Origin: Saccharothrix deserti
GTDB taxonomy: Bacteria > Actinomycetota > Actinomycetes > Mycobacteriales > Pseudonocardiaceae
Assembly (NCBI RefSeq): GCF_009769385.1
Contig: NZ_VKAB01000041.1
Location: 1 to 64,000, forward strand
Length of the DNA stretch: 64,000 nt
Reading direction: 5' to 3'
A model generated the notes under the pieces. The model had not been told where the DNA came from. It worked only from the letters and a program-made list of their open reading frames with translations, and ran no database searches. This document shows, one piece after another, positions 29,848-47,182 of this stretch. Positions within the stretch are counted from its first letter, which is position 1, and each line of letters starts with the position of its first letter. A program made the position numbers and the translations under genes.

Positions 29848-29945
29848 TCCCGTGCTCGTGCAGGACCTGCCGCAGTCGTTCCCTGCCGATGCGGACCCGC
29901 CGGGTCGGGTTGCGGCGCAGGTGGACGGCGAGTTCGCGCAGGCTG
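29828..29945 (-). mobile_element. IS630-type transposase fragment
   Basis: The minus-strand translation reads LRELAVHLRRNPTRRVRIGRERLRQVL, then HEHGISFQR. As I recall it, this is the conserved segment of IS630-family transposases just before the DDE domain (family form: RERLRQILHxHGISFQRTRTWK). It stops after QRWR. No DDE residues or terminal repeats are visible. It abuts the truncated methyltransferase at about 29946. Confidence 0.6.
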
Positions 29946-30794: not shown

Positions 30795-31799
30795 CTACCC
30801 AGACCGCCAATTACCGGTCCGCACGCCCGGCTGCATCCCCTGCCCGGACATCCGGGCGGCGGCGTGTGCCAGGCCGACGTCCAAGGGGATCGCGGCCCGG
30901 AAGCCGAGGACGCGTTCGATGCGATCGGCGGAACAGGTCCACGCCGCGTACCGGGCCTCCCGAGCCTTGTCCCGGTTGAGGATGGGAACCGTTCCGGTGA
31001 CCCGACCGAGCAGTTCCGCCGCGGTCGCGGCGAGCTGCAGCGCTGCGCCTGGTACGGGCACCACGACAGGGCGGGCGACACCCAGTGCCGTGGCGAAGGC
31101 GGTGCAGATGTCCTCCCACCGGTGTTCGACGCCGTCGCTGACGTAGTAGACGCTGCACGGACCGGTGGCCGCGGTGATCAGTGCGACGCAGAGGTCGTCG
31201 ACGTGGATCAGCGAGTAGCTCTTCGAACCGCGTCCGCTCTTGGGCATCACGCCGAGCCGGGCCATCGGCGCGAGGGTGCCGAGGAACTCGCGGTCTCCGG
31301 GCCCGTAGACGATCGGAGGGCGGACGATGGTGACCGGCACGAGGTGCGAGACGGCGGTGACTTCACGTTCCGCGCGGAGTTTGCTGTGGCCGTAGTGCGA
31401 TACCGGTGTGCACGGCTGGTCTTCGGTGCGGGGTCGGTCGGGTGTCGCGGGTCCGGCGGCCGAGAGCGAGGAGCAGTGCACGAGCCGCGGTGGGTCTTGT
31501 ACGGCGGCGAGCGCGCAGGCGAGTGTTCGGGTCGCGAGTCGGTTGCCGCGGTAGTAGTCCGCGGGTGTGCGGGCTTTGATCACGCCCGCGAGGTGGAAGA
31601 CGCAGTCGACGTCGCGCAGCGCCGCACGCAGTCCCTCGCCGGTGACCAGGTCTCCTTCGGCGAACCGCACACCGGTCAGGCCTCCGCGCCGCGAGGTCGG
31701 GCGCACGAACGCGGTCACCTGGTAGCCGCGTCGGACCAGGTGCCGCACCAGGTGGCGGCCGATGAAGCCGGTTGCGCCGGTGACCAGAGCCCTGATCAC
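30795..31799 (-). CDS. Extended SDR, CerR-like NAD(P)-dependent reductase
   Basis: The 334-residue protein starts at GTG 31799, overlapping the GNAT stop by four bases. The Rossmann motif is VTGATGFIGRHLVRHL, the catalytic Ser is in VHCSSLSAAG, and the YxxxK motif is YGHSK. The substrate half includes VRPPIVYGPGDREFL. It belongs to the NAD-dependent epimerase/dehydratase-like group that includes the bacterial ceramide reductase CerR. Directly after an oxoamine synthase and a GNAT acyltransferase, the likely role is reducing the 3-keto group left by the synthase. It is the last gene of the PKS operon. Confidence 0.78.
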   Translation of the reverse strand: MIRALVTGATGFIGRHLVRHLVRRGYQVTAFVRPTSRRGGLTGVRFAEGDLVTGEGLRAALRDVDCVFHLAGVIKARTPADYYRGNRLATRTLACALAAVQDPPRLVHCSSLSAAGPATPDRPRTEDQPCTPVSHYGHSKLRAEREVTAVSHLVPVTIVRPPIVYGPGDREFLGTLAPMARLGVMPKSGRGSKSYSLIHVDDLCVALITAATGPCSVYYVSDGVEHRWEDICTAFATALGVARPVVVPVPGAALQLAATAAELLGRVTGTVPILNRDKAREARYAAWTCSADRIERVLGFRAAIPLDVGLAHAAARMSGQGMQPGVRTGNWRSG

Positions 31800-32902
31800 A
31801 GCGTTCGCCGGTAGATCCGGTAGGTCTTGGTGCGCCGCGCGCCCAGGGCTCGCATCGTGTTGTTGACGGTGTGGTTGTCCTCCAGGACCCACGATCCCTC
31901 ACGCCGCCGGTAGCCGAGTTCGTGGCTGGTCCGAAGCAACTCGGTGTACAGCGCGGCGTCGATCCCCCGGTCCCGGTACGCCCTGTCGACGCCGAGTGCG
32001 ATGAGCCGTCCGGCGCGGACCGCGCGCAAGGCGCGGACCATCCTCCACAGGGCGAGCGGGTTGGTCCTGCCCGCCGCCACGCGCAACGCCTCGTTGGCGT
32101 CCGGCAACCCGAGCGCGAAGCCGACCGGTTCACCGTCGACCTCCGCGAAGACCAGCAGTTCGGGTCTCAAGATCGGCTTGAGTTCCGCGGCCATGTGGTT
32201 CCACTCGCGGTCGGTCATCGGGACGAAGCCCCAGTTGCTCTCCCAGGCGCTGTTGTAGATGGTTTTGAGGCGGGCGGTCTCGGCGTCGTAGTCGCCGAAG
32301 TCGGCGGTGCGCAGGGTGAATCCCTCTCGCCGGCGCACCGCCTCGACCAGTCGGGCCACCCGGTCGGGCGGTGTGCCGCCGGGAGCGACCTCCCACGCCC
32401 ACAGGTCTTTGGCCGTGGTGAAGCCGCACCGCTCGATCAACGCCGGGTAGTAGGCGGGGTTGTAGGCGGTCAGGACCATCGGTGGTTGGTCGAACCCATC
32501 GACGAGAAGCCCGCACTCGTAGTTGGTGGAGAAACTCGTCGGCCCGAGCACCGCGTCGAGCCCGCGTGGCGCCAGCCACTTCGCGACGGTGTCGAACAGC
32601 GCCTGTGCGACGGTGTGGTCGTCGACGCAGTCGAACAGGCCGAAGAACCCGTCGTGGGTGCCGTGCACGTCGTTGTGCCGGGGGTTGTCGACCGCCGCTA
32701 TCCGTCCCACGACCCGGCCGTCGCGCCGGGCGAGGAACGGTTGCACCGAGCCGAACTCGAGGAAGGGGTGGTCGCGCAGGAATTTCCGCCGCTCACGACG
32801 CAGTGGCGGCACCCACCGGGGGTCGTCGCGGTAGAGCTGGAAGGGGAATTCGATGAACGCGTCCAGGTCCCGGCGTCCGTGCGCCGGTTCGACGGTGATC
32901 AC
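31796..32902 (-). CDS. GNAT-superfamily acyltransferase, bCerS-like
   Basis: The 368-residue protein starts at GTG 32902 in GTGA overlap with the oxoamine synthase. Conserved segments are FPFQLYRDDPRWVPPLRRER, VGRIAAVDNPRHND, FFGLFDCVDD, GPTSFSTNYECGLLVDGF and PMVLTAYNPAYYP. These define a large family of ~370-residue GNAT-fold proteins. From memory, bacterial ceramide synthase bCerS, which N-acylates sphingoid bases, is of this acyl-CoA N-acyltransferase type. Its neighbours on both sides are the other two ceramide enzymes, so N-acylation of the amine made by the synthase is the favoured role. Acyl donor unknown. Confidence 0.72.
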   Translation of the reverse strand: MITVEPAHGRRDLDAFIEFPFQLYRDDPRWVPPLRRERRKFLRDHPFLEFGSVQPFLARRDGRVVGRIAAVDNPRHNDVHGTHDGFFGLFDCVDDHTVAQALFDTVAKWLAPRGLDAVLGPTSFSTNYECGLLVDGFDQPPMVLTAYNPAYYPALIERCGFTTAKDLWAWEVAPGGTPPDRVARLVEAVRRREGFTLRTADFGDYDAETARLKTIYNSAWESNWGFVPMTDREWNHMAAELKPILRPELLVFAEVDGEPVGFALGLPDANEALRVAAGRTNPLALWRMVRALRAVRAGRLIALGVDRAYRDRGIDAALYTELLRTSHELGYRRREGSWVLEDNHTVNNTMRALGARRTKTYRIYRRTL

Positions 32903-34140
32903 GCCGTCACCGGCCGGGCCGTCATCACCGGTTCGTAGGTCCGCGGCGGTGTCGCCGGTATCACGCCGAGTTCGCGCCCGACCCGCGCGAAGGCTTCGAG
33001 TGCCTGGTCGAGCTGGGTGTCGGTGTGCGTGGCGAGAACGCTGGCGCGGATCATCGTCTTGTCCGCGGGCAGTGCGGGCGTGACGAACGCGTTGGTGAAC
33101 ACCCCGGCGTCGAGCAGCGCGGTCCAGAAGCGCAGGCACAGCGTTTCGTCGCCGATGAGCACCGGGACCACGTGGGTGGTGGAGCGGCCGGTGTCGAACC
33201 CGAGTGCGCGAAGGCCGTTGTGGAGCCGTTCCGCGATGTCGAGCAGCCTCGTCCGGCGTTCCGGCTCCTGTTCGATGATCTGGAGCGCCATGTCCGCGGC
33301 GGCCACCGCGGCGGGTGGCATCGCCGCCGAGTACACCGCCGGGTGCCCCAGGTGCCGGATGAAGTCGACGACCTCCCGCGAGCCGGCGATCAGGCCGCCC
33401 GTCGAGCCGAAGGCCTTGGAGAAGGTGCCGGTGACCAGGTCCACTTGCGATTCGAGCCCGAAGTGCTCCGGCGCACCTCGGCCGTGTGCGCCGAGCACCC
33501 CCAAGTCGTGTGCGCAGTCCAGCACCACACGCGCGTCGTGCTCACGGGCGAGCCGCACGATGGCGGGGAGATCGCACAGGTCGCCCTCGATGGAGAAGGT
33601 GCTGTCCGTGACGATCACCTTGCCCCGGTCGGCGCCGCTCGTGTCGAGCAGCCACGCGAGGTGCTCCACGTCGTTGTGCCGGTAACGCCGGTGTTCCGCG
33701 AAACCCAGCCGGGCCGCGTCGACCAACGAGGCGTGGTTGCCCCGGTCGGTCAACACCACGTCGCCGTGCCCCAGGAGCGTCGAGATCGCCAGGTTGGTCT
33801 GGAACCCGGTGGCCGTGACCACCGCGGCTTCCCGCCCCAGGAAATCCGCGATCCGCTGCTCGAACTCCCCGTGCACCGGCCTGGTGCCGTTGAGCAGCCG
33901 GGAACCGGAGCAGCTGGTGCCGTACCGGTCGATCGCCTCCTGCGCGGCGGCCTTGACCCTCGGGTCGGCGGACAGCCCCAGGTAGTCGTTCGAACCGAGC
34001 ATGACGACCTTGCGTCCCCCCACGACCGCCTCGGTGCCGTCGACGAGGTCCTCGATCACGTGGCCGTACGGCATGATCCCCGCCGTGACGGCGTCCCGGA
34101 CCCGGGTCCACGCCCGACATTTGTCGAAGACATCGGCCAT
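32899..34140 (-). CDS. Alpha-oxoamine synthase (serine palmitoyltransferase-like)
   Basis: This 413-residue PLP enzyme starts at ATG 34140 after AAAGGA. Key sites are visible: GSNDYLGLSADPRV, GNHASLVDAARLG (His136 stacks on PLP), DCAHDLGVLGAHGRG (Asp208, His211) and the PLP Lys242 in GTFSKAFGSTGG. The DEAHS of most relatives is DCAHD here. The family condenses an amino acid with an acyl thioester and loses CO2. Members include Spt (serine + acyl), KBL, BioF and HemA. With a PKS in the same operon and no thioesterase, I infer that it takes the polyketide chain from the PKS carrier domain. Confidence 0.85.
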   Translation of the reverse strand: MADVFDKCRAWTRVRDAVTAGIMPYGHVIEDLVDGTEAVVGGRKVVMLGSNDYLGLSADPRVKAAAQEAIDRYGTSCSGSRLLNGTRPVHGEFEQRIADFLGREAAVVTATGFQTNLAISTLLGHGDVVLTDRGNHASLVDAARLGFAEHRRYRHNDVEHLAWLLDTSGADRGKVIVTDSTFSIEGDLCDLPAIVRLAREHDARVVLDCAHDLGVLGAHGRGAPEHFGLESQVDLVTGTFSKAFGSTGGLIAGSREVVDFIRHLGHPAVYSAAMPPAAVAAADMALQIIEQEPERRTRLLDIAERLHNGLRALGFDTGRSTTHVVPVLIGDETLCLRFWTALLDAGVFTNAFVTPALPADKTMIRASVLATHTDTQLDQALEAFARVGRELGVIPATPPRTYEPVMTARPVTA

Positions 34141-34154
34141 GTCTGTCCATCCTT

Positions 34155-34970
34155 TCAACGGAGCGTCTCCGCGGACTCCGGCACACGGGGCTTGTCGCCG
34201 GTTCGGGCGGTGGTCCGCCGATCACGGGTTCGCAGGAGGAAGGTGAGCAGTGCGCACGTGGCCGCCGTGACGATCCACAGCGACTGCACGGCAAGGCAGG
34301 CGGGGGACACCGTCGGCGAGAACCCGGCCGCGATACCGGTTTGCGTGGCGCCGTAGGAGGGCAGGTAGGGGCGGATGCCCGCATCGGGGACGGGGTTGAG
34401 CACCGGGTTCTGCAACGCCTGGTCGACGATGCTGGTCGCGATGATGAGGAACATCCCCTCGAGTTCACCCCGGATCAGCAGGCCGATCACCGCGCCGATG
34501 GCCCCGTAGGCGAGTGCCGCCGCCAACATGCCGACCGCGAGCAGCCAGCACTGCGCGGGCCGCCAGAGCAGGTGCACCAGCAGCGTCGCGTAGGCGGTGG
34601 CCGTGACCGAGACCAGCACGAGCAGGGTGAGTTTCGCCGACATCAGCCAACTGCGGGGGTAGCCGGCCATGGCCAGGCGGTGGTCGAAGCGCACCGACGA
34701 GTGGGTCGTGCTGAACATCGTGAACCCGACCAGGAGTGTCACCCCGTTGAAAGCGGTGACCAACATGCCGAGTTCGTTGCCCTGGGCTTGGATCGTCTCG
34801 TCCGCGGCCACGAGGCGCAGGACGACGGCGTTGTGCGTGTACCCGAAGTACGGCATGACGACGCAGATCGGGATGACGAACACGAGCAGCGTGAGCGCGA
34901 AGCGGTGGCGCAGGTGTTCGGTGAGCACCAGGCGTGTGGTGGTGGCGTAGTACCGCAGGCGGCGTGACAT
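34155..34970 (-). CDS. ABC-2 type transporter permease
   Basis: The 271-residue protein has six hydrophobic segments (about 22-42, 65-85, 108-130, 140-160, 168-185, 235-255). The loop after TM2 includes TMFSTTHSSVRFDHRLAMAG and SWLMSAKL, typical of ABC-2 exporters. Only one base separates it from the ATPase gene stop, and it has GGGAG before the ATG. With the preceding ATPase it should export the operon's product or move it between membrane leaflets. This also gives possible self-resistance. Confidence 0.83.
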   Translation of the reverse strand: MSRRLRYYATTTRLVLTEHLRHRFALTLLVFVIPICVVMPYFGYTHNAVVLRLVAADETIQAQGNELGMLVTAFNGVTLLVGFTMFSTTHSSVRFDHRLAMAGYPRSWLMSAKLTLLVLVSVTATAYATLLVHLLWRPAQCWLLAVGMLAAALAYGAIGAVIGLLIRGELEGMFLIIATSIVDQALQNPVLNPVPDAGIRPYLPSYGATQTGIAAGFSPTVSPACLAVQSLWIVTAATCALLTFLLRTRDRRTTARTGDKPRVPESAETLR

Positions 34971-34971
34971 G

Positions 34972-35673
34972 TCACGCTCCCGTGGAGTTCGGGTCGACGA
35001 GGCGCAGAACGCCCGACGACAGTCGGTACACCGCGGACAGGCGTGCTGTGTCGTGGGCCAGGTGGGACACGATGAACACGCAGCGCCCGCGCGAGCGCAG
35101 CTCGTCGGTCAGGTCCCAGAACCGCAGGTAGGTGTTCCAGTCGAAGCCCTGGTACGGCTCGTCGAGCAGGGCGATCGCGGGGTCGTGCATCAACGCCAGG
35201 GTGAGGTTGAGCTTCTGCCGCGTGCCACCGCTGAGCACCCCGGCCGACTCGTCCAGGAACGGCGTGAGGTGGAGGATCTCCATGAGGTCGGTGGCCCGGT
35301 CGAGTGACGGCAGCCCGTAGGCGACCTGGAAGTACTGGAGGTGCTGTCGCACCGTCAGCCGATCGTTCAGGACGATCCGCTGCGGGCAGTACCCCACGGA
35401 TCCGGTGCAGGCGACCGTGCCGCGGTCCGGGACGAGTTGGCCGCTGAGGATCCGCAGCAGCGTCGTCTTCCCCGCACCGTTCTCACCGACGATGCCCACC
35501 ACCGTGCCGCGCGGGCATTCGATCTCGACACCGCACAGCACCTCGCGGTCGCCGAAGCGGTGGTGGACGTCCGTGACCCGCAAGACCCAATCGGCTCCCG
35601 CCACGGGCGCCTCTCGGTCGGACGACCGGTGCTTGGCGGTTGGATTTCGGATCGCCGTCCACGGGACACGCAC
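34972..35673 (-). CDS. ABC exporter ATP-binding subunit
   Basis: The 233-residue protein has Walker A GENGAGKTT, signature LSGGTRQKL, Walker B IALLDEPYQGFDWN and switch His in FIVSHLAHD. It is a single-domain ATPase of the ABC-2/DRA type. The first ~28 residues are a non-conserved extension. The GTG start has GGAGG seven bases upstream, and that Shine-Dalgarno overlaps the last codons of the PKS gene, so the two are likely co-translated. It pairs with the permease gene that follows. Confidence 0.87.
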   Translation of the reverse strand: MRVPWTAIRNPTAKHRSSDREAPVAGADWVLRVTDVHHRFGDREVLCGVEIECPRGTVVGIVGENGAGKTTLLRILSGQLVPDRGTVACTGSVGYCPQRIVLNDRLTVRQHLQYFQVAYGLPSLDRATDLMEILHLTPFLDESAGVLSGGTRQKLNLTLALMHDPAIALLDEPYQGFDWNTYLRFWDLTDELRSRGRCVFIVSHLAHDTARLSAVYRLSSGVLRLVDPNSTGA

Positions 35674-35677
35674 GTGA

Positions 35678-38600
35678 TCACCTCCGATCCGTGATCAGTT
35701 GTGCCAGGCGCGCCATGCTCGTGGACGCCTTCATCAGGTCCATCGACGACAGCTGAACGCCGAAGCGACTCCGGATCTCGGCGAGCAGTTCCATGGCCAA
35801 CAACGAATCCACGCCGAGTTCGACCAACGGCTTCGTGCGGTCGATCCGCGCCGGCGCGGTCCGCATCACGGCAGCCAGGTGCCGCACGATGGCCTCCTCG
35901 ACCGCCGTCGTGGTCTCCTCACCCGACTCCCCCGACTCGCCCGATTCCCCCGACTCGCCCGCGAGTGGCACCGGCACATCGGAGCCACCCGGAACGGACC
36001 CCGGCAACAGCCCGGCGAGCCGCGGTGTGCCGAGCAAGGGCGTGTGGTCACGCATCCGCCTCCAGTCGAACCTGCCGGCGGCGACCACATCCGTTGGCCA
36101 CTCGGACAACGCGTCTTCCAGGAAGTCCAACGCCCGGTCGCAACTCGTGGGCGACAGGCCCGCCTTCGCCATCTGCTCGCCGATCCGGTGGCGGGCGACG
36201 TAGCCGGTGTCACCGATGACGCCCCACTGGACCGCCAGTGCGGGAAGTCCTCGCCGGCGGCGGAACCGGGTGTGCGCCTCCAGGTACAGGTTGGCCGCGA
36301 CGTAGTTGGCCTGCCGGGCGTTCCCCATGACCGTCGTGGCGGACGAGTAGGCGACGAAGAAGTCGAGCGCCTGGTCACCGGTCAGCTCCTCCAGCACCAG
36401 CACCCCGAGCAGCTTCGGGTCGAGCACGGCCCGCAGCGCCCGGTGGTCCATGTCCGCCAGCGGCCGGTCGTCCAGCACCATGGCCGCGTGGACGACGCCA
36501 CGCAGCGGCCGTCCGGTGGCGGCGATCCGGGCCATGACCGACCTCATCGCCCGCGGATCGGTGACGTCCACTGAGTGCGCGGCGACCTGCACTCCTCGAT
36601 GTCGCAGGTCATCGAGGAGTTCGCCGGCCCCGGGCGTCAGGTGGCCGCGCCGACCGACGAGCGTCAGGTGCCGGGCGCCGCGGTCGGCCAGCCGCCGCGC
36701 TGTCGCGGCGCCGAAGCCACCGAGACCGCCGGTCACCAGGTAGGTCGCGGCTGGGTCCAATCCGAGCGGAACCCTGGCCGGTCGCACCGCTACGGGGTCG
36801 TCGAACGAGATCACGACCTTGCCGACGTGCCGGGAGTGCTGCATGAGCCGGAACGCCTCGGCGACCCCCGCCGCGGGGTACGTGCGGTGCGGTAGCGCCG
36901 GGTACTGGCCCGCGTGCACCGCTGCGACCACCTCCCGGAGGTGCCGCGCCGCGAGTCGCGGGTTGCCGGTGGGGATGTCGGCGATGTCGACCACCAGGAA
37001 GCTGATGTTCCGGCGGAGGGGGTGCATCGGCAGCCGGGAGTTCCGGTAGATGTCGCGTTTGCCGAGTTCGACGAACCGCCCGTGCGGCGCGAGGACCTCC
37101 AGACCACGCGACAGGGCCTCACCGCCCAAGGAGTTGAGCACGACGTCGACACCACGTCCGCCGGTGATGTCCATGACCTGGTCGGCGAAGGCCGTGCTGC
37201 GCGAGTCCAGCACGTGCTCGATGCCGCACGTTCGCAGGAAGTCCCGTTTGGCGTCGGTTCCGGCGGTGGCGATCACGTGCGCCCCGCGGGTGCGGGCGAA
37301 GTGAACGGCGGCCAGTCCGACGCCGCCGGCCGCGCCGTGGACCAGGATCGTTTCGCCCCGGTCCAGGCGCGCCAGGTCGTGCAGGCTGTGGTGGACCGTC
37401 CACCACACCGCGGGAACGGTGGCGGCCTCGGTGAAGGTCATGGAGTCCGGTATGCGGCCGACCGCGTCGGCTCGGACGAGGACGTGCGACGCGAGGGAGG
37501 CCGGGGCGTACCCGAACACCCGGTCGCCGGGCTTCAGCCCCGTGACACCCGTGCCGATGGCGGCGACAGTTCCGGCGTAGTCCAGGCCGAGCGTGCGATC
37601 GAGGTCCACCTGTCCGTCGGCATCGGCCTCCGGCGGGAGCAGTCCGGTCGCGATCATGATGTCGTGGTAGTTGAGCCCTGCCGCGCGGACGTCGACCAGG
37701 ACTCGGCCCGGCCCGGGTCGGCGGACGCGCTCCTGTTCCCAGGCCAACCGGTATCCGAGCCCCGGGTTCTCCACCGTGAGCCGGAACCCGACGTCAGCCG
37801 CGGGTCCACCGGTCAACCGCGGCCGGTCGCTCGCGACGACGCGAGGCACGAACCGCCCGCCCGCGGTCAACACGACCTCGTCCTCGTCGGACGGGGCAAG
37901 CAATTCCGCCGCGACACGGTGTGCATCGGCTGCCGGGTCTCCGGCGTCGTCCCACGAGATGCGCCGCGATATCAGGTTGGAGTGCTCGTTGGCGATCGTG
38001 CGGCCGACGCCCCATGCAGCCGCGTCCAACGGCACCCTGGGCTCCTCCGGAGCGGGAAGGGCGCCCGAGGGCCTGGTCACCAGCCACAGCGGCAACTTCC
38101 CGCCGGTTCGCGCGTCGCTGCCGGCGGCGAGTGCCCTCAGCACCGCCGCGCGGTGCACGGTGCATTCGGAGGGGTCCGGCGTCCGCGGCCCGCCGAGGAC
38201 CACGACGACGCCGGTGAGGTCTTCCCGGCGGGCGAGGTGGATCAACTGCTCAGGATCGGCCCCGACATGCTCGATCGCGGCGCCTGTCGCGCGGAGGGCG
38301 GAGGTCACCGCGTCGGCTCGTGCGCGATCCGCGGGGTCGTCCACGACGACACACCACACGGAGTCCTGAGCCGGTGGGATGTGCGGCCGGACATCACCGC
38401 GCCTGGTCGGGGTGGAGGCGACCAGGACGGATTCACCGCTGCCGCCGATGTGGCCCACTTCGGCGAAGCCGCTGTCCGGCAAGAGGGACAGCCAGCCGTC
38501 GCGGGACAGGAGCGGGGAGGCGGTTCGCAGCTGTGTGTCGGTGAACGCCCAGAAGCTGTCGAGTACGCCGAAGGGCAGCGCGAGGAAGCCGGTGTCGTGC

Positions 38601-41600
38601 GTTTCGGCCGCGATGAGCAGACCACCGGGAGCGAGCAGTCCGGCCACCCCGCGCAGTGCCGAGCCGAGGTCTGCCGCGGCGTGCAGCGCGTTGGCGACGA
38701 TGACCAGGTCGAACTCGCCCGCGACGAAGCCTTGTTCCGCGGGATCGGTGTCGAGGTCGAACCGGCGGCATTCCACGAAGTCGTAATCGGCGAAACGGGC
38801 TTTCGCGCCGTCCAGCAGTGCAGTGGAAACGTCGGTTGCCACATAGGTGGTGCGTTCGGCGGGCAGCACCGGCAGCACGTGCACCGTCGTCGCGCCGGTG
38901 CCCACACCGATCTCCAGGACCCGCAACGGCCGGTCGACCGGCCACTCCCCGGCCACCTTCGTCACGAGGTGGCGGACCACGCCGTTGTACCGCCCGATCG
39001 ATCCGACGCCGAAGAGGTGGAAGAGGGCTTCCTCCAGGTCCGCTCCGGTGGACAGCAGCTCGCCCGGATCGGTTGTGCCACGCAGCACGTCGGCGAGGTG
39101 CGCACCGCACCTGCTCTGCAGCAACAGGTAGCTTTCGACCGCCGGGAACCGTCGCAGTGCTTCCCCCATCACGGCGGGCACGTCGGCGTCACGATTGATC
39201 AGCCAACGCGGTTCCGCGTGGTGCACCAGACCTTCATCCGCCGCCAGTCCGAGCAGCAGCAGGACCAAGGGCAGGTGTCGGGCCGACACCCCGGCCGCGG
39301 TCAGGTCGTCGACGGTGAACGACGTCCGTCGCGGGAGCAGTTCGGCGACGGCAGCGCGCATGAAGTGACCGCTGAGCCGCTTGACCAGCTCGATCGTCCC
39401 GGCATCCAGCAGCGCGGGCGCGGTCTCGGCGCAGGCCGCGACGAGGTCGTCCGGGCCGGCCAGCGGCCACGGCGCGGCCGGTTGGCCGGACCTCGGCTGG
39501 GCGCGGAGCACCGTGTCGAACCGGCTGACCTCGTCGGTGGACGCCCGGCCGAACGGCCGCAGCCTGCACTCCGCGAGTTCCACCACCACCGCACCGGTTT
39601 CGTCGGCGATGGAGATGTCCCAGCAGGTCTCGCGCGGGGTGACGGAGCGCATCCGGACGTGGATGCGGCCCCGCGCGGGCGGTTGGCGCCACATCCGGAC
39701 GCGGCCGATGGATGCCGGCAGGAACGCGCGGCCTCCGCCCAGGTCCAGCGCCGGCAGCAGGTTTCCGGCCTGGAACGCCGCGTCCAGCAGCGCGGGATGC
39801 GCCTCGTACCCGTCCTGCGGTGTGTCGAAGCGGTAATCCGCCCACAGTTCGTCGTCACCGATCCGCACCTCGTCCAGGCACCGGAACAGCGGCCCGTACT
39901 CGATCCCCGACCGCTCGCACAGCGCGTAGGCCGAGTCACCGGTGATCCGCCGGCGCGGCTCCGGTTCCGCGGTGACCGGAGGCGGGGGTGGTGCGGTCAT
40001 GGCGCGGACCCGCCCCCTGGCGTACAGCTGCCACGGGCCGCTGGAGCCCTCCCGGTGGGCGACCCGCAGCACACCGTCCTCATCGGACAGCGCGACCTGG
40101 ATGTGGTGGTCCATGTCGGGTGCCCAGGACAGCACCATCGGTTGCGATATCCGAAGCCGGTCCAGCTCGACGGGGCGGTCGTGGGAGAGGCGCCCGGCGG
40201 CCAGCGCCATCTCCACGTAACCCGTGGCGGGCATGACCACGGCTCCGTCGATGCGGTGCTCGGACAACCACGGCGTGCGCGTCGGTTCCACCTGGCTGTG
40301 CCAGGACGGTTCCGCCACCGGCATGCGCTCGCCCAGCAGCGGGTGGTCGATCCGTCCGCTGCCGGGGAGGCGCGTCCACCGGTTCGGGTCGCCCTTCCAG
40401 AAGTGCTCGTGCCGCCAGGGGTAGCGCGGCAGGTCGCGCACGGCGCCGGCGGTCGGGAACAACCGTGCCCACTCCAGGTCCCCTCCCGCGGTCAGGACAG
40501 CGGCGGTGACCCGGTCGGCGAGGTCCTCCCGGTGGTCGTTGCGGGACATGGTGGCGATCGGCAGCAGGCGTTCCGGTCCCGCCCCGAGCCGGCTCAGGTA
40601 GGTCGACAGCACCGGGTGCGGTCCGATCTCCACGACGATCCCGACGCCGTGTTCGGCCAGGTGGGCAGCGGCCCGGCCGAACAGCACCGGTTCGCGGATG
40701 TTGCGCCACCAGTGGCCGGCGTCCAGGTCGCCGGCCCGCACCAGGTCGCCGGTCACGGTGGACAGCAGCGGGATGTGCGGCTCCCCCGACAACACCGTGG
40801 CCAACGCGGCGTGGATCCGTTCTCGGACGGGCTCCATCGCGTGACTGTGGAACGCGTAGTCCAGGTCGAGCTCGCGGAAGAACACGTCCTCGCCGGCCAG
40901 CTTCTCCCCCAGCTCACGCAGCGCCAGAGCGTCGCCGGAGACGGTGACGTCGCGGTCGCCGTTGATCGCGGCCACCTCCAACCGGCCCTCGAACCCGGCC
41001 AGGACTTCACCGGCCTGCTCTTCGGACAGACCGACCACGGCCATGCGGCCCGCCCCGGCGGTCACGGCTTGGGCCGCGCTGCGTTCCGCGATCACCGTCG
41101 CCGCCGTCCGCAAGTCCAACGCACCGGCCACGTGGGCGGCGGCGACCTCGCCCACGCTGTGCCCGAACACGACCTGTGGCGTGATCCCGTTCGCGCGCAG
41201 CAGCGCCGCCAGCCCGACCTGGACGGCGAACAGCAGCGGTTGGGCGATCGCGGTGTCGGTCAACCGGGACCTGTCCGCGGACGCATCGAGTTCCTCGACG
41301 ACCGACCAGCCCATGAGGGGCCGCAGTTCGGCGTCGACGGCTTCCACCGCGGCGCGGAACACCGGCTGCGCGGCGAGCAGCGACACGCCCATGCCCGCCC
41401 ACTGCGAGCCGTTGCCGGAGAACGCGAACCCGATCCCCTTGTGGGAGCGGACGCCCGGAGTACCACCGATCTCCACCGCGGCCAGCTCGCGGGACGCCCG
41501 CGCGGGCTCGTCGGCGAGCACGACCGCCCGGTGTTCGTGCCGGGTGCGCCGCAGGCAGAGGGTGTGGGCCAGGTCGTAGAAATCCTCGCGGGACGTGCGG

Positions 41601-43006
41601 TCGAGCACTTCCCGCGTGTCCCGCACGGCGTGCGCCAGCGCTTCAGCCGAGCGGGCCGTGACCACCACCGGCAGTGCCCGACGGACCGGTCGGGTCCGCG
41701 GCGGAGCCTCCGGTGCGGGCCCGAGGACCGCGTGGGCGTTGGCACCGCCGAACCCGAAGTTGCTGACGCCCACCAGGGTTCCCGGCGGCAGTTCGCGACG
41801 CCGGTGCACCGGGTCCAGGCCCAGGCCCGCGAAGTCGATCGCCGGGTTCACGGGTGTGCCGTGCAAGGACGCGGGGATCTCGCCGTGCCTGAGCACCAGC
41901 ACCGCCTTGAGCAGACCCGCCATGCCCGAGGCGGCTTCGAGGTGGCCGATGTTGGTCTTGACCGACCCGATCGGCAGCGCGGTGCCGCGCCGCCGCCCCA
42001 ATGCCTTCCCCAGTGCCGCGCACTCGGCGGTGTCCCCGGCCTGGGTTCCGGTTCCGTGCGCCTCGACGTAGCCGAGCCGGTCGGGACCGAGACCGGCTTC
42101 GCGGTAGACCTCGTGCAACAGGTGGGCCTGGGATTCGGCACTGGGCAGCATCATGCCGTGCGTGCGCCCGTCGCAGTTCGTCCCGGTGGCGAGCACGACC
42201 GCGTGCACCCGGTCACCGTCGGCGAGCGCGTCGTGCAGCCGCTTGAGCACGAGCACACCGGCGCCTTCCGCGCGCACGAACCCGTCGGCGTGGGCGGAGA
42301 AGGCGCGGCACCGGTGGGTGGGTGACAGCATCCTGGCCTTGGAGAACCCGACGAACGGCAACGGGTTGAGCAACAACTGCGACGCCGCTGCCACCGCCGT
42401 CCGGCCTCGTCCGTCGCGCAGGTAGCGGCATGCGTGGTCCAACGCGAACAGCGATGAGGCGCAGGCGGTGTCCACCGTCGCGCTGGGGCCGCGGAGGTCG
42501 AAGGCGTAGGAGATCCGGTTGGCCACGACCGCGCCGGCCATGCCGGCCATGGAGTGGACGTCGAAGTTCCCGGCGTCGGTCTCCTGCACGCCCTGGTAGT
42601 CGGTGCTCGTCACGCCGGCGAACACCGCGGTGTCCGATCCGCGCAGCGAGTCCTGGTCCAGTCCGGCGTCGTCGAACGCCTCCGCGGTCAGTTCGAGCAC
42701 GATCCGCTGCTGCGGATCCATCGCCTCGGCCTCACGCGGTGACACGCCGAAGTACTCGGCGTCGAACCCCGCGACGTCGGGCAGGTACCCGCCGGCGAAC
42801 GAGTAGCTCTTGCCGGGACGTGCGGGATCCGGGTCGTGGAACCGGGCCGGGTCGAACCGCCCCGGCGGTGGTCCGCCGCCGACCAGGTCGCGACCCTCGC
42901 GCAACACCTGCCACAAGCCGTCGAGGTCGCCGATGCCGCCGGGCAGCCGACACGCCACCCCGACGATCGCGACGGCCTGGTTGTCGGTGTCGCTGGTGAT
43001 GTGCAC
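35678..43006 (-). CDS. Highly reducing type I polyketide synthase (KS-AT-DH-MT-ER-KR-ACP)
   Basis: The 2442-residue synthase starts at GTG behind GGAGG. KS 9-430 has Cys182 (VDTACASSL), His317 (EAHGTGT) and His355. AT ~525-825 has Ser617 (GHSVGE) and YAFHS at 717, which suggests malonyl-CoA. DH ~885-1150 has His917 in H-x3-G-x4-P and Asp1075. MT ~1330-1480 has SAM motif LEIGVGTG at 1364. A non-catalytic KR-like part fills ~1545-1735. ER ~1750-2060 has HGAAGGVGLAA. KR ~2085-2300 has GGLGGFG, LDD (B-type), Ser2221/2222 and Tyr2235. A (GES)4 linker precedes the ACP (Ser2401, LGVDSL). All sites look intact and no thioesterase or reductase ends the chain. One full module with MT is the layout of iterative fungal HR-PKSs. 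Confidence 0.92.
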   Translation of the reverse strand: MHITSDTDNQAVAIVGVACRLPGGIGDLDGLWQVLREGRDLVGGGPPPGRFDPARFHDPDPARPGKSYSFAGGYLPDVAGFDAEYFGVSPREAEAMDPQQRIVLELTAEAFDDAGLDQDSLRGSDTAVFAGVTSTDYQGVQETDAGNFDVHSMAGMAGAVVANRISYAFDLRGPSATVDTACASSLFALDHACRYLRDGRGRTAVAAASQLLLNPLPFVGFSKARMLSPTHRCRAFSAHADGFVRAEGAGVLVLKRLHDALADGDRVHAVVLATGTNCDGRTHGMMLPSAESQAHLLHEVYREAGLGPDRLGYVEAHGTGTQAGDTAECAALGKALGRRRGTALPIGSVKTNIGHLEAASGMAGLLKAVLVLRHGEIPASLHGTPVNPAIDFAGLGLDPVHRRRELPPGTLVGVSNFGFGGANAHAVLGPAPEAPPRTRPVRRALPVVVTARSAEALAHAVRDTREVLDRTSREDFYDLAHTLCLRRTRHEHRAVVLADEPARASRELAAVEIGGTPGVRSHKGIGFAFSGNGSQWAGMGVSLLAAQPVFRAAVEAVDAELRPLMGWSVVEELDASADRSRLTDTAIAQPLLFAVQVGLAALLRANGITPQVVFGHSVGEVAAAHVAGALDLRTAATVIAERSAAQAVTAGAGRMAVVGLSEEQAGEVLAGFEGRLEVAAINGDRDVTVSGDALALRELGEKLAGEDVFFRELDLDYAFHSHAMEPVRERIHAALATVLSGEPHIPLLSTVTGDLVRAGDLDAGHWWRNIREPVLFGRAAAHLAEHGVGIVVEIGPHPVLSTYLSRLGAGPERLLPIATMSRNDHREDLADRVTAAVLTAGGDLEWARLFPTAGAVRDLPRYPWRHEHFWKGDPNRWTRLPGSGRIDHPLLGERMPVAEPSWHSQVEPTRTPWLSEHRIDGAVVMPATGYVEMALAAGRLSHDRPVELDRLRISQPMVLSWAPDMDHHIQVALSDEDGVLRVAHREGSSGPWQLYARGRVRAMTAPPPPPVTAEPEPRRRITGDSAYALCERSGIEYGPLFRCLDEVRIGDDELWADYRFDTPQDGYEAHPALLDAAFQAGNLLPALDLGGGRAFLPASIGRVRMWRQPPARGRIHVRMRSVTPRETCWDISIADETGAVVVELAECRLRPFGRASTDEVSRFDTVLRAQPRSGQPAAPWPLAGPDDLVAACAETAPALLDAGTIELVKRLSGHFMRAAVAELLPRRTSFTVDDLTAAGVSARHLPLVLLLLGLAADEGLVHHAEPRWLINRDADVPAVMGEALRRFPAVESYLLLQSRCGAHLADVLRGTTDPGELLSTGADLEEALFHLFGVGSIGRYNGVVRHLVTKVAGEWPVDRPLRVLEIGVGTGATTVHVLPVLPAERTTYVATDVSTALLDGAKARFADYDFVECRRFDLDTDPAEQGFVAGEFDLVIVANALHAAADLGSALRGVAGLLAPGGLLIAAETHDTGFLALPFGVLDSFWAFTDTQLRTASPLLSRDGWLSLLPDSGFAEVGHIGGSGESVLVASTPTRRGDVRPHIPPAQDSVWCVVVDDPADRARADAVTSALRATGAAIEHVGADPEQLIHLARREDLTGVVVVLGGPRTPDPSECTVHRAAVLRALAAGSDARTGGKLPLWLVTRPSGALPAPEEPRVPLDAAAWGVGRTIANEHSNLISRRISWDDAGDPAADAHRVAAELLAPSDEDEVVLTAGGRFVPRVVASDRPRLTGGPAADVGFRLTVENPGLGYRLAWEQERVRRPGPGRVLVDVRAAGLNYHDIMIATGLLPPEADADGQVDLDRTLGLDYAGTVAAIGTGVTGLKPGDRVFGYAPASLASHVLVRADAVGRIPDSMTFTEAATVPAVWWTVHHSLHDLARLDRGETILVHGAAGGVGLAAVHFARTRGAHVIATAGTDAKRDFLRTCGIEHVLDSRSTAFADQVMDITGGRGVDVVLNSLGGEALSRGLEVLAPHGRFVELGKRDIYRNSRLPMHPLRRNISFLVVDIADIPTGNPRLAARHLREVVAAVHAGQYPALPHRTYPAAGVAEAFRLMQHSRHVGKVVISFDDPVAVRPARVPLGLDPAATYLVTGGLGGFGAATARRLADRGARHLTLVGRRGHLTPGAGELLDDLRHRGVQVAAHSVDVTDPRAMRSVMARIAATGRPLRGVVHAAMVLDDRPLADMDHRALRAVLDPKLLGVLVLEELTGDQALDFFVAYSSATTVMGNARQANYVAANLYLEAHTRFRRRRGLPALAVQWGVIGDTGYVARHRIGEQMAKAGLSPTSCDRALDFLEDALSEWPTDVVAAGRFDWRRMRDHTPLLGTPRLAGLLPGSVPGGSDVPVPLAGESGESGESGESGEETTTAVEEAIVRHLAAVMRTAPARIDRTKPLVELGVDSLLAMELLAEIRSRFGVQLSSMDLMKASTSMARLAQLITDRR

Positions 43007-43083
43007 GTCGTGCCTTCCTCCGCAGTACCGACCCGTCTGGTTGCAACAGCCTCGTTAAGTGCCCGGAGCACGGCCACCGCTGT

Positions 43084-43150
43084 GTGCGGACTTCACTCGA
43101 TCAGTGAATCCGGGATGCGATCCCGGGCGATTGGTGCGTGAAGTCCGCAC
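43084..43150. promoter_or_regulatory. Nested inverted repeats in the divergent PKS/KAS promoter region
   Basis: There are three perfect repeats. Outer arms GTGCGGACTTCAC (43084-43096) and its complement (43138-43150) are 13 bp each. TTCACT-5nt-AGTGAA lies at 43092-43108, and CCGGGAT-3nt-ATCCCGG at 43110-43126. They lie 78-144 bp before the PKS start. This is likely a bidirectional control site for the two operons. Confidence 0.6.
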
Positions 43151-43176
43151 GCCTTCACACCTTCGGGTGGCTTCGC

Positions 43177-43210
43177 TCCGGAGATTCGGCCCACCAGCGG
43201 AATCTCCGGA
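43177..43210. promoter_or_regulatory. 11-bp inverted repeat in the KAS operon leader
   Basis: TCCGGAGATTC (43177-43187) and GAATCTCCGGA (43200-43210) form a perfect stem with a 12-nt loop. It is either an operator or an attenuator/terminator hairpin. About 190 bp of leader without a recognised gene follows before the KAS III start. Confidence 0.5.
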
Positions 43211-43398
43211 TGCCGCGTGCGGGAGCAGGTGATATCGATTCGGAATGCCACCCGTCGTGCTCCTGGCCGCGCGCCTCGTCCGGGATGTGAGGTGATGTCG
43301 ATCGTGCAGTCCGCCGCAGGTGCGCCGAAGTGCCAGTCGCGCGAGCGAGTGCCGCACGGCTTTCCGGGCGCCGCTCGTCCGGGGAACGGCTGATCGTC

Positions 43399-44421
43399 GT
43401 GCCGGGAGTCGCACTGCGCGGAATCAACGGCTGGCTGCCGCCGCACGTGGTCGACAACGACGAGGTCGGTGCGCGCCTGGCCGTGAGCGGCTCGTGGATC
43501 CTGCGCCGCACCGGTATCGGCGAGCGCCGACGCGCGGATCCCGGCACGGCCGCCTCCGACCTCGCGGTGCGGGCCGCCGCGCCGCTGCTGGCGCTGAGCG
43601 ACGGCCCGGTGCGGACGATCGTGGTCGCGACCATGTCGCCGGATCACCCGTGTCCGGCCACCGCGCCGCTGGTCGCCGCGCGACTGGGGCTGGCGGGAGC
43701 GGCGGCGTGGGACGTCAACGCCGCCTGTGCCGGGTTCGTGTACGCACTGGCGTGCGCCACCGCCCTGGTTTCCGCCGGGCAGACCGACCGGGTCCTGGTC
43801 ATCGGCACGGACGTGATGAGCACCGTCGTGGATCCCGACGACCGGGACACGGCGGTGCTGTTCGGGGACGGCGCCGGAGCCGTGCTGCTGGAAACCGCCA
43901 CGCCGCACGAACCCGGTTCCTTCGGCCCGTTCGACCTCGGCTCCGACGGTGCGCTCGTCGACCTGGTCATCACCCCCGCCGGCGGCTCACGTCGGCCGGC
44001 TTCACCGTCCAACGGGGACGGACGGTACCTGCGGATGCAGGGGCAGGCGGTGTTCAAGCAGGCCGTCGACCACATGACCGCCTCCGCGCGTGCCGCTGTC
44101 GACGCCGCGGGGTGGACCCTCGACCAGGTCGACTGGTTGATCGGTCACCAGGCCAACGCCCGCATCCTCGCCGTCGTCGGCGACGTCCTGGGCATCTGCC
44201 CCGAGCGTCGCGTCGTGTGCCTTGAGCGCACCGGCAACACCGCCACCGCGTCGATCCCGCTCGCGCTCCACACCCTCGCCCGATCGGGGAAGGCGCGGGC
44301 AGGCGACCGGGTCGTCCTCACGTCCTTCGGCGGTGGTCTGTCGTGGGGCTCCACCACGATGACCTGGCCCTCGACCCTGGTAGTCGTCCCCCAGCAGGAC
44401 CCGGAGGAGGCCTCGACGTGA
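43399..44421 (+). CDS. Beta-ketoacyl-ACP synthase III
   Basis: The 340-residue thiolase-fold enzyme has the FabH triad: Cys in VNAACAGFVYALA, His in IGHQANARIL and Asn in RTGNTATASIP. GTG 43399 is the likely start, because it gives the normal FabH N-terminus (GVALRGINGWLPPHVVDND). Upstream frame is less typical. KAS III condenses an acyl-CoA starter with malonyl-ACP. As first gene of the operon divergent from the PKS, it could make the starter or the second acyl chain used by the pathway. Insertion STVVDPDDRDTAVLFGDGAGAV is family-normal. Confidence 0.87.
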   Translation: MPGVALRGINGWLPPHVVDNDEVGARLAVSGSWILRRTGIGERRRADPGTAASDLAVRAAAPLLALSDGPVRTIVVATMSPDHPCPATAPLVAARLGLAGAAAWDVNAACAGFVYALACATALVSAGQTDRVLVIGTDVMSTVVDPDDRDTAVLFGDGAGAVLLETATPHEPGSFGPFDLGSDGALVDLVITPAGGSRRPASPSNGDGRYLRMQGQAVFKQAVDHMTASARAAVDAAGWTLDQVDWLIGHQANARILAVVGDVLGICPERRVVCLERTGNTATASIPLALHTLARSGKARAGDRVVLTSFGGGLSWGSTTMTWPSTLVVVPQQDPEEAST

Positions 44422-45650
44422 ACGCCCGCAACGCCCCGCAGCCCGTTGCCATCACCGGTCTGGGCATGATCACCCCAGCCGGTGCGGACACCGCCGCCAC
44501 GTGGCGGGAGGTGTGCCGCGGTACCGCCACCGCGGCCGTCGACCCGGCGTTGGCCGATCTGCCGGTGAGCCTGTCCTGTCGCGTCCGGGCACCGCTGGAG
44601 CGGCCTGTCATGCGGCGCAAAGGGGTCAAGAACCTGGACCCCGTCACCCGCTTCGCGCTCAACGCCGCCGACGAAGCGCTCGACGACAGCGGCCTCGACC
44701 CGATCGGGTGGCAACCCGACCGGGTCGCGGTGGTCACCGGAACGGGCGCCGGGGGATCCCACACCGTCACCCGGGGCCACGAGGTGCTGGCCGCCGAGGG
44801 GCCCCGAGCCGTGTCGCCGTACCACCTCCCGGCCTCGCTGATCAACATGACGTCCGCGTTCCTCAGCCTGTACTTCACCGCCCGCGGCCCCAGTTTCACC
44901 GTCTCGACCGCGTGCGCCTCGGGCGCGGACGCCCTCGGCCTGGCGCAGGACCTCCTGGCGGCCGATCGCTGCGACATCGCCCTGGTCTGCGGCGCCGAAG
45001 CGGGCATCACCCCCATCTCGGTCGCGAGCTTCGCCCAGATCAAGGCCCTGTCCGCGGAGTCCGACCCCCGGCTGGCGTCGCGGCCGTTCGACCGGGACAG
45101 GAACGGGTTCGTCATCGCCGAAGGCGCCTGCGTGCTCGTCCTGGAACGACCGCGCGACGCCGCGGCCCGAGGCGCGAGGATCCGCGCACTCCTGCTGGGC
45201 CACGCCTCCACCAACGACGCCCACCACGCGACCGCTCCGCACCCCGACGGCCTGGGTGCGGAAACCGCGCTGCGACAGGCCATCCACCGCGCCGGCCTGA
45301 CAGCCGCCGACATCACCCACGTCAACGCCCACGGCACGTCCACACCGGCCAACGACCGGATCGAGGCGTGCCTGCTCACCCAAGTCCTCCCCCACCACCC
45401 GGTCGTCACCTCCTCGAAAGGGGCGCTGGGCCACGCCCTCGGCGCGGCGGGCACGATCGAGGCCGCGCTCACCGTCCTCGCCCTCGAAGAACACCGGGTC
45501 CCTCCGACAGCGGGGACGCGCGACCTCGATCCCGAGTGCGGAATCGACCTCGTCCTCGGCACGCCGCGCGCCCACCCGGGCAACTACGCCGTCAGCAACT
45601 CGTTCGGGTTCGGCGGGCACAACAGCGTCGTCGTCCTCGCCGCACCCTGA
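44418..45650 (+). CDS. Beta-ketoacyl-ACP synthase I/II (FabF-like)
   Basis: The 410-residue protein has a GTG start overlapping the KAS III stop (GTGA). Cys is in VSTACASGADALG, His in VNAHGTSTPANDR, and Lys/His in SSKGALGHALGAAG. All catalytic residues are there, so it is an active elongating KAS and not a chain-length factor. The closing SNSFGFGGHNS motif is intact. Together with KAS III and the ACP it forms a small type II elongation set, but no dedicated AT, KR, DH or ER is encoded here. Reductive steps would come from general fatty acid synthesis. Confidence 0.87.
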   Translation: MNARNAPQPVAITGLGMITPAGADTAATWREVCRGTATAAVDPALADLPVSLSCRVRAPLERPVMRRKGVKNLDPVTRFALNAADEALDDSGLDPIGWQPDRVAVVTGTGAGGSHTVTRGHEVLAAEGPRAVSPYHLPASLINMTSAFLSLYFTARGPSFTVSTACASGADALGLAQDLLAADRCDIALVCGAEAGITPISVASFAQIKALSAESDPRLASRPFDRDRNGFVIAEGACVLVLERPRDAAARGARIRALLLGHASTNDAHHATAPHPDGLGAETALRQAIHRAGLTAADITHVNAHGTSTPANDRIEACLLTQVLPHHPVVTSSKGALGHALGAAGTIEAALTVLALEEHRVPPTAGTRDLDPECGIDLVLGTPRAHPGNYAVSNSFGFGGHNSVVVLAAP

Positions 45651-45669
45651 TCACCGCCAAGGGAGAACC

Positions 45670-45924
45670 ATGACCACGTTCCACCGCCTCGCCGACATGG
45701 TCAGCCGCGTCGCCGAAGTGCCTTTGGACAGCATCACGCCCACCAGCAGCCTCGATGAGCTGGAGGTCGACTCCCTCGCCCTGGTGGAGCTGATCCTGCG
45801 CGTCGAGAAGACCTTCGGCATTTCGGTCAGGGACGGCGATGTCCAGTCGAACGACACGATCGACGGCATCGCGCGGTACATCGAGGAGCGACTCCCGACC
45901 GACGCCATCCCCGACGCGGTGTGA
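45670..45924 (+). CDS. Acyl carrier protein
   Basis: The 84-residue ACP has the phosphopantetheine Ser in LEVDSLALVEL (about residue 37). It is acidic and helical. The ATG follows AAGGGAG, 19 bp after the KAS gene. Bacterial Spt genes are often accompanied by their own ACP that hands acyl chains to the oxoamine synthase. This one could do so, or serve KAS III/KAS. The KAS-to-ACP order supports a shared operon. Confidence 0.9.
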   Translation: MTTFHRLADMVSRVAEVPLDSITPTSSLDELEVDSLALVELILRVEKTFGISVRDGDVQSNDTIDGIARYIEERLPTDAIPDAV

Positions 45925-45994: not shown

Positions 45995-47182
45995 CTAGCC
46001 GAAGTTCCGCCCCTCGCCGCGGTACGTCGGCACGGTCGCCTCGACCGCGTCGCCCCGCACGAGGTGGTAGTGCGTGAACCGCTCGGCCAGCTCGCCTGCC
46101 TTGGCGTGCCGCATCCACACCCGGTCACCCAGCCGCAGCGAGTCGGCCGCCCGACCGGCCACCGGGGTCTGCACCTCACCCGCGCCCTCCATCGGCAACA
46201 GCCTCAGCCCTTCGGGGAGGTACGGCGACGGCTGCCGGTCCGGGGTGGCGGAACCGGAAGCGATGTAGCCGCCGGAGAACAGCGTCGCCACGCCCTTCGC
46301 GGGCAGGCGCACGACGGGCAGCGCGAACAGCGCCGCCGGACGCGGCTGGAACGAGCGGTAGGCGTCGAACAGGGTGGGGGCCAGCAGACCGGCCCCGGCG
46401 GCCAGTTCCGTGACGGACGGGTCGGCCGTGGTGACCTCCAGGCTGCCCGTGCCGCCGCCGTTGACGAACTCCAGGTCCGCGACCCGGCGCACCTCGGCGA
46501 CCGCGAGCGCGCGCCGTTCCACCAGCTCGGCGACCGACTTGCGCTGCACCCACCGCAGCACCGCCGCCCGCACCGGCTTCCCCGGCGGGGAGTCACCGAC
46601 ACCGGCGATCTGGCTCTCGTACGCCATGACGCCCACCAGGCGGAACCCGGCGCGTCCGGTGATCCGAGCGGCCAACTCCCCCGCCTCACGGGCGCTGTGC
46701 ACGGGCGAGCGGCGGCTGCCGATGTGCAGGCCGGGCAACGGCCGCCACGACACGTCCAGCTCCAGGCACACCCGGATCTCCGGGTGTCCGTGGCCGAGCG
46801 CCGCGTCCACCAGGTCCAGGTGGGCGAGCGAGTCGACCACGATCGTGACGCGGCGGCGGGCCGCCTCGTCGGCGGCGAGCGCCCGCAGCGCCGAGTGGTT
46901 CACCGCCGGGTACGCGACGAGGAGGTCTTCGCTCGTGTCGTGCTCGGACAACCACAGGGCCTCGGCCAGCGAGTAGCACATGAGTCCCGCCACGCCGTCG
47001 ACGCGGAGCGCCCGGTCGAGCAGGGCGCGGACCCGCACCGACTTGCTCGCGACCCGGATCGGCTTGCCCGCCGCGCGGCGGACGAGGTCGGCCGCGTTGT
47101 GGTCGAAGGCGTCCAGGTCGACGACCGCGAACGGCGGATCGAGGCCCTTCGTCGCGGTGTCGAGGCGGCTATTGGATTCCAT
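45995..47182 (-). CDS. PLP-dependent amino acid deaminase/aldolase (alanine-racemase fold)
   Basis: The 395-residue protein starts at ATG 47182 behind GGAG. The N-terminal barrel has PFAVVDLDAFDHNAADL and the PLP Lys in IRVASKSVRVRALL. Later parts are FVNGGGTGSLEVTTADPSVTE and the C-terminal metal/dimer domain LRLGDRVWMRHAKAGELAERF. It matches the group annotated amino acid deaminase/aldolase, near D-threonine aldolase and D-serine dehydratase. It converges on the ACP gene. Whether it belongs to the lipid cluster is unclear; it could shape the amino acid pool used by the oxoamine synthase. Confidence 0.72.
   Translation of the reverse strand: MESNSRLDTATKGLDPPFAVVDLDAFDHNAADLVRRAAGKPIRVASKSVRVRALLDRALRVDGVAGLMCYSLAEALWLSEHDTSEDLLVAYPAVNHSALRALAADEAARRRVTIVVDSLAHLDLVDAALGHGHPEIRVCLELDVSWRPLPGLHIGSRRSPVHSAREAGELAARITGRAGFRLVGVMAYESQIAGVGDSPPGKPVRAAVLRWVQRKSVAELVERRALAVAEVRRVADLEFVNGGGTGSLEVTTADPSVTELAAGAGLLAPTLFDAYRSFQPRPAALFALPVVRLPAKGVATLFSGGYIASGSATPDRQPSPYLPEGLRLLPMEGAGEVQTPVAGRAADSLRLGDRVWMRHAKAGELAERFTHYHLVRGDAVEATVPTYRGEGRNFG

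Follow-up and report, generated by a model that had tools for sequence, protein, structure and literature searches.

The window analyzed here, 64,000 nucleotides of contig NZ_VKAB01000041.1 from the actinomycete Saccharothrix deserti, carries at positions 30795 to 45924 a nine-gene locus which probably makes an exported ceramide-like lipid through the successive action of a highly reducing (HR) polyketide synthase (PKS), a serine palmitoyltransferase (SPT, or Spt), a bCerS-type N-acyltransferase, a CerR-type reductase and an ABC transporter. Because one operon joins the PKS to a ceramide gene set, the lipid probably contains an unusual, possibly methyl-branched chain. Direct support comes from the presence of the genes, their intact motifs, homology, the operon layout and one recurrence of a four-gene core; the precedent, by analogy, is SgaAB, where an iterative PKS chain is joined to serine by an oxoamine synthase, as described in passages of PMC12134224. 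The main uncertainty is whether the predicted role of the PKS chain is that of the sphingoid base or of the N-acyl group. The reading was first put forward in an earlier note made from the window alone and survives in part: the SPT-like synthase, the ceramide-type partner enzymes and the recurrence of the PKS with them bear it out, whereas the conservation of all nine genes and the newness of a PKS feeding an oxoamine synthase do not hold.

Organization of the locus

Read from 43006 down to 30795, six minus-strand genes encode the PKS, an ABC ATPase, a permease, an alpha-oxoamine synthase, a GNAT acyltransferase and an extended short-chain dehydrogenase/reductase (SDR); a run encoding two beta-ketoacyl-acyl carrier protein synthases (KASIII and KAS) and an acyl carrier protein (ACP) diverges from them at 43330-45924. 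All nine genes that the earlier note had claimed are present where it placed them, as judged by Pfam, NCBIfam and motifs:

35678..43006, minus strand: putatively iterative HR type I PKS, KS-AT-DH-MT-ER-KR-ACP, 2442 amino acids (Pfam, motifs)
34972..35673, minus strand: DrrA-like ATPase of an ABC transporter that may export or flip a lipid (PF00005)
34155..34970, minus strand: probable permease of the ABC pair, 271 amino acids (PF12698 at E 0.012, below cut-off; position)
32899..34140, minus strand: alpha-oxoamine synthase of the Spt type, 413 amino acids (PDB, NCBIfam, tree, TFSKA motif)
31796..32902, minus strand: GNAT N-acyltransferase, YghO homologue of the CC_1154/bCerS type, 368 amino acids (34% identity to E. 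coli YghO)
30795..31799, minus strand: extended SDR of the CerR/epi type, 334 amino acids (30% identity to its E. coli counterpart; TGATGFIG and YGHSK motifs)
43007..43329, no strand: divergent intergenic region, presumed to hold the promoters of both runs (gene coordinates)
43330..44421, plus strand: KASIII, FabH type, Cys-His-Asn intact, start codon uncertain
44343..45650, plus strand: beta-ketoacyl-ACP synthase II (the KAS), FabF type, Cys-His-His intact, start codon uncertain
45670..45924, plus strand: stand-alone ACP, 84 amino acids, DSL motif (PF00550)

The PKS and ATPase genes are separated by 4 bases, the ATPase and permease genes by 1 and the permease and synthase genes by 14, and a GTGA stop-start overlap links the synthase to the GNAT gene and again the GNAT to the SDR gene; given these overlaps and gaps of 1-14 bases, the six genes likely form one transcription unit. 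The likely starts are a GTG at 32902 for the GNAT, for which a longer reading frame starting at 33139 was set aside, and a GTG at 31799 for the SDR. A frame overlapping the KAS gene, 44501-45673, has neither a Pfam nor an NCBIfam match and was rejected as the KAS. A motif check finds the catalytic motifs of the PKS intact in its KS, AT, DH, MT, ER and KR domains and at the ACP serine, and finds those of the KASIII, KAS, ACP, synthase and SDR present as well.

The synthase, the GNAT and the SDR as a ceramide cassette

The oxoamine synthase is of the SPT type. Its best PDB matches are the serine palmitoyltransferases 3a2b and 8guh (E about 6e-99), with KBL and BioF weaker, and the best SPT model of NCBIfam scores 414.6 bits vs 355.8 for BioF, both under their cut-offs. 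In a 40-row tree drawn from 39 of the 114 loci listed (L006 among the 114 being the window's own), ten actinobacterial rows, the synthase among them, form a 100/100 clade nested inside a 100/98 clade with myxobacteria, and the synthase adjoins Streptoalloteichus with a support of 86/58; the rows L002, L007 and L010 in this tree are KBL/BioF by assumption and not by profile scan. Clustering with BioF or KBL, named beforehand in the earlier note as grounds for abandoning the idea, is rejected on the PDB and NCBIfam scores, which favour SPT, and on the tree. The TFSKA motif is present, and a homologue known without genome context (P0003) is 71% identical.

The partner enzymes, as had been proposed, are homologues of bacterial ceramide enzymes. 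The GNAT shares 34% identity with an E. coli YghO (E 8e-76), a comparison made with YghO and not with CC_1154 itself, and the SDR shares 30% with the epimerase-family product of the same SPT operon of E. coli (E 4e-35), again not CC_1164 itself. In passages of PMC9386255, yghO is listed with CC_1154 as an acyltransferase needed for dihydroceramide, and CC_1164 is the epimerase/dehydrogenase needed for it; according to passages of PMC11087976, Caulobacter Spt and bCerS are cytoplasmic and CerR is periplasmic. The Spt homologue clades with the SPTs of such cassettes, as a member of a Spt-bCerS-CerR set would. Since the last three genes encode a Spt-like synthase, a YghO-family GNAT and a CerR/epi-family SDR, they are predicted, from homology and neighbourhood, to be the bacterial Spt-bCerS-CerR ceramide cassette, homologous in all three members to that of Caulobacter.

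Neighbourhoods elsewhere point in the same direction. Of 80 loci retrieved with an alignment to the synthase, 25 carry homologues of both the GNAT and the SDR no farther than 6 kb from it; counted singly, the GNAT is so placed in 47 and the SDR in 28. In 23 of the 80, the synthase sits at most 1.5 kb from an end. At E 1e-8 none of the 80 matches the KS-AT part of the PKS, the KAS, the ACP or the permease; a KASIII occurs in two, a partial match to the remainder of the PKS in five and an ATPase match in nine. The GNAT is found in 31 of 396 genomes of the phylum sample, the source genome included. The rhodobacterial ceramide set, as it appears in passages of PMC11087976 and PMC9386255, resembles the locus in having a dedicated ACP but differs in employing an acyl-CoA/ACP synthetase where the locus has the HR-PKS and KASIII-KAS-ACP; the ACP of the locus does not align to that of the E. 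coli SPT operon.

Ceramide triads of other actinobacteria have different genes beside them: a PAP2-type phosphatase gene in Streptoalloteichus (L046, 8682-9902), an MMPL transporter in Bailinhaonella (L042, 5058-7640) and PapA/condensation-type acyltransferases in Streptomycetaceae (L052, 13204-14403; L057, 13746-15086). In two Aminicenantes loci, L068 and L085, a KASIII and an SDR adjoin Spt.

The polyketide synthase and the proposed pathway

The Pfam scan detects no thioesterase domain in the PKS, whose AT motif, YAFH, suggests a specificity for malonyl. In the proposed pathway, the PKS would assemble malonyl units into a reduced chain with optional C-methylation, the primer perhaps being an acyl group supplied by KASIII-KAS-ACP. 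Because the PKS has no thioesterase domain, release would fall to the Spt-type synthase which, by homology, would condense the PKS-bound chain with L-serine into a 3-oxo-sphinganine-like base; the bCerS-type GNAT would then place a second acyl chain on the nitrogen and the CerR-type SDR would reduce the 3-oxo group, acylation preceding reduction as in the Caulobacter model outlined in passages of PMC11087976. Finally, the ABC pair may carry the lipid across the membrane. The divergent KASIII-KAS-ACP genes may either prime the PKS or build the second chain.

The PKS is one of a large family of actinobacterial HR-PKSs, its closest relative among the matches listed being 52% identical over residues 860-2442. 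PKS trees of 30 and 29 rows, taken from 120 homologues among the matches listed, were computed quickly; the PKS falls in an 8-row clade with Saccharothrix, Actinosynnema, Lentzea and other members (Shimodaira-Hasegawa-like approximate likelihood ratio test, SH-aLRT, 100). Two relatives from the same genus, 50% and 48% identical over an 821-residue part, have different neighbours, one of them including a 27% KASIII match, and beside neither does a match to the synthase, GNAT or SDR exceed 60 bits. Given these different neighbours, the PKS seems to have come from a local pool and not to have been passed down along with the cassette.

Recurrence of the PKS-cassette pairing

The same four-gene core occurs in a genome of another actinomycete family, that of the Bailinhaonella genome. 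In this genome, G747, the synthase, GNAT, SDR and a 2532-amino-acid HR-PKS are consecutive on one strand, with identities to the locus of 57%, 54%, 55% and, for the PKS, 57% in KS-AT and 42% in the rest. The G747 PKS has the same seven domains; the gene order differs, with the triad first and the PKS last. In the 24 other genomes of the source genus the best synthase matches are just 34-38% identical, yet the core recurs in a second family, so the pairing is real and more than chance. Conserved co-occurrence, expected in the earlier note of the whole set, thus extends to one other genome for PKS-Spt-bCerS-CerR, whereas the nine genes were not found as one conserved unit.

How the pairing arose is less clear-cut. 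A sister relationship of the window and G747 PKSs is rejected by the approximately unbiased (AU) test on a quick tree (p about 1e-42), and the G747 PKS pairs with an Allokutzneria PKS at 91. The synthase tree is compatible with a window-G747 pair at a p-AU of 0.247, and in the GNAT tree the two group together with weak support (69/77); length filters dropped no row from either tree. With PKSs that are not sisters and synthase and GNAT trees that permit the pair, two independent joinings and a single joining followed by replacement of the PKS appear equally possible.

Comparison with SgaAB and fungal systems

A bacterial PKS that feeds an oxoamine synthase has already been published, which limits the novelty of the locus. 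According to passages of that 2025 paper (PMC12134224), SgaA, an iterative PKS, and SgaB, which has SPT activity, make sphinganines in P. fluorescens MYb115, a KDSR-like SDR is proposed as SgaC, 6,101 homologous clusters are dominantly from Burkholderia, and Actinobacteria are named in the discussion as possible sphingolipid makers. Three plasmid clusters, L117, L118 and L121, served as stand-ins for SgaAB, MYb115 itself being outside the comparison. As in SgaAB, where the long-chain base comes from a PKS chain and serine and a single-module iterative PKS lies near the oxoamine synthase, the locus has a single-module HR-PKS and an oxoamine synthase in one run, here with two ABC genes between them. 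However, the stand-in synthases form their own 100/100 clade apart from the locus, on the assumed KBL/BioF side, and their best NCBIfam model is BioF, unlike that of the locus synthase; in the quick trees, the stand-in PKSs likewise form a separate clade (SH-aLRT 100). Neither the SDR of L118, itself just a presumed counterpart of SgaC, nor the small GNAT of L118 significantly matches the corresponding enzyme at the locus. The locus was rejected as an SgaAB member, since its synthase and PKS fall outside the stand-in clades; it appears instead to combine an SgaAB-like working with a ceramide cassette, apparently assembled separately.

A search of the source genome (10.8 Mb) for a head-group gene like that of the SgaAB-type clusters gives a single PF00884 match, on another contig and, at 27.8 bits, just over the cut-off. 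A PF00884 (sulfatase-fold) gene with a possible head-group role is divergent from the G747 synthase (L188, 11455-13320, minus strand); it does not match the L118 gene annotated as LTA synthase family.

In fungi, the fumonisin cluster combines an HR-PKS with an MT domain (FUM1), an oxoamine synthase (FUM8) and a 3-keto reductase (FUM13). The domain content of the locus, an HR-PKS with MT, an oxoamine synthase and a ketoreductase, is like that of the fungal sphinganine-analogue clusters; domain make-up also sets it apart, since its N-acyltransferase is of the bacterial type and its SDR is extended.

The transporter, the divergent genes and neighbouring genes

The ABC-2 exporter of the original proposal stands for its ATPase (PF00005), whereas the ABC-2 label of the permease is weak: the PF12698 match reaches 15.2 bits vs a cut-off of 31.6, and the label depends on position and on a similar pair in Streptomyces canus (L113; ATPase 62%, permease 42%). 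The best NCBIfam model of the ATPase is drrA, far under cut-off, and the counterpart in S. canus shows that such a pair also occurs outside sphingolipid loci.

The KAS is 49% identical to the nearest other copy within the source genome. Two Streptomyces KASIII-ACP-KAS cassettes, L137 and L139, contain the same three-gene kit (KASIII 51-52% identical; KAS 54% and 49%) but belong to different clusters, that of L139 next to a large modular PKS, and place the ACP between the two synthases. In some actinomycetes, enzymes of this kind adjoin an oxoamine synthase. At L112, the KAS next to the synthase shares 53% identity with the KAS of the locus; a plasmid of Streptomyces NBC_00523 (L125, 2769-12883) carries KASIII, SDR, oxoamine synthase, KAS, MaoC, AMP-binding ligase and ACP genes and a trpA-named gene. 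In another actinomycete, G1566 (L197, 9392-17982), Spt is divergent from an AT-ACP-KAS-KAS-bCerS-MMPL run, the ACP being recognized by eye in the translation; this arrangement sets a ceramide core next to a chain builder of type II.

Outside the locus, an alanine-racemase-N-domain gene (45995-47290, minus strand) is convergent with the ACP gene, with no pathway link implied. Downstream of the SDR, a 230-amino-acid frame (29793-30485, minus strand) with a glycine-rich EWGGGFG stretch is methyltransferase-like by eye and has no Pfam match. At 48515-53434, near a LysR regulator, lies a group of three genes resembling class A beta-lactamases and one of the metallo-beta-lactamase fold.

Points against the proposed pathway and alternative readings

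Several observations weigh against the proposed pathway. The product and the enzyme activities are themselves predictions, and the chain from the PKS might just as well become the N-acyl group. The 414.6 bits of the synthase fall short of the SPT cut-off of 640, as do the scores of the synthases in the cassettes of Streptoalloteichus and S. aurantiacus; the best NCBIfam model of the SDR is HpnA, at 114 bits vs a cut-off of 368; and the GNAT has neither an NCBIfam match nor a good PDB match. Scans of the order, class and family samples, in which at most four candidates per genome were scored, detect the synthase at E 1e-100 in none of 396 other genomes of the order and one of 393 other genomes of the class (G747), and at E 1e-95 in 10 of 389 other genomes of the family. 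None of these ten, two of them Streptoalloteichus (one being L029), matches the DH-to-ACP part of the PKS within 4-15 kb of flank, and three carry nearby a different protein that combines KS-AT with an oxoamine synthase; in the five other genomes of the G747 family sampled, with the same flanks, there is no DH-to-ACP match beyond one 73-bit stretch. An HR-PKS with the triad is thus found in only two actinomycete genomes, the source genome and G747, which makes the pairing rare; because other family genomes have the triad but no such PKS, the triad appears to work without it. Within 49.9 kb around the G747 cluster, ABC, KASIII and ACP matches were not found and there is no stand-alone KAS, the KAS matching the KS of the PKS and a short stretch at E 2e-4.

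Of the KS-AT proteins just mentioned, that of L180 (3809-8404, minus strand, 1531 amino acids), the only one domain-scanned, has a C-terminal oxoamine synthase domain; L181 and L184, of one genus with L180, carry it too, and in each case it adjoins a second oxoamine synthase.

The strongest alternative, though still an unlikely one, wires the same enzymes differently: a fatty acyl thioester, perhaps from KASIII-KAS-ACP, would enter Spt, and the GNAT would install the PKS chain as the N-acyl group. Several actinomycetes and myxobacteria have the triad with no PKS nearby, so acyl donors of other kinds can serve Spt, and the gene arrangement of G1566 fits this wiring. The polyketide chain of jawsamycin is reportedly transferred onto an amine. 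The jawsamycin pathway also has an iterative PKS and no homologous thioesterase gene, and the passages on it in PMC13389473 name no release enzyme. By contrast, SgaAB passes its PKS chain to the oxoamine synthase, and G747 has the PKS without KASIII or ACP. The fungal sphinganine-analogue clusters, too, pass their PKS chain to an oxoamine synthase, which counts against a PKS-made N-acyl group.

It is considerably less probable that the synthase takes glycine or alanine, so that 1-deoxy or aminoketone compounds would result in place of true ceramides. Spt can alternatively accept alanine, as stated in passages of PMC11334938, and the synthase scores under the SPT equivalog cut-offs; however, its closest solved relatives are SPTs, and its GNAT and SDR partners are homologous to dihydroceramide enzymes. 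Two unrelated adjacent pathways, one comprising the PKS and its exporter and the other the ceramide cassette, are very improbable: the two same-genus PKS relatives do have quite different neighbours and the triad does stand alone elsewhere, but the genes likely form a single overlapping transcription unit and the same pairing appears in a second family.

Implications

The proposed route from PKS through Spt, bCerS and CerR admits a broader interpretation, which is offered tentatively: an iterative HR-PKS may have been joined to the bacterial ceramide pathway at least twice in actinomycetes, independently of fungi and of SgaAB, and both chains of the exported ceramide may be custom-made, the two chain builders at the locus supplying a methyl-branched polyketide and a KASIII-KAS product. 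No actinobacterial PKS-ceramide pathway was found among the best literature matches, which were mainly open-access; the genus breakdown of the 6,101 SgaAB-type clusters was outside their scope. If true, the locus would be a further assembly of the idea of a PKS-made sphingolipid chain and, within that literature, the first found joined to a bacterial N-acyltransferase and ceramide reductase. The four-gene set in two genomes makes the idea testable, and the Spt-bCerS pair may help to track down unusual amino lipids.

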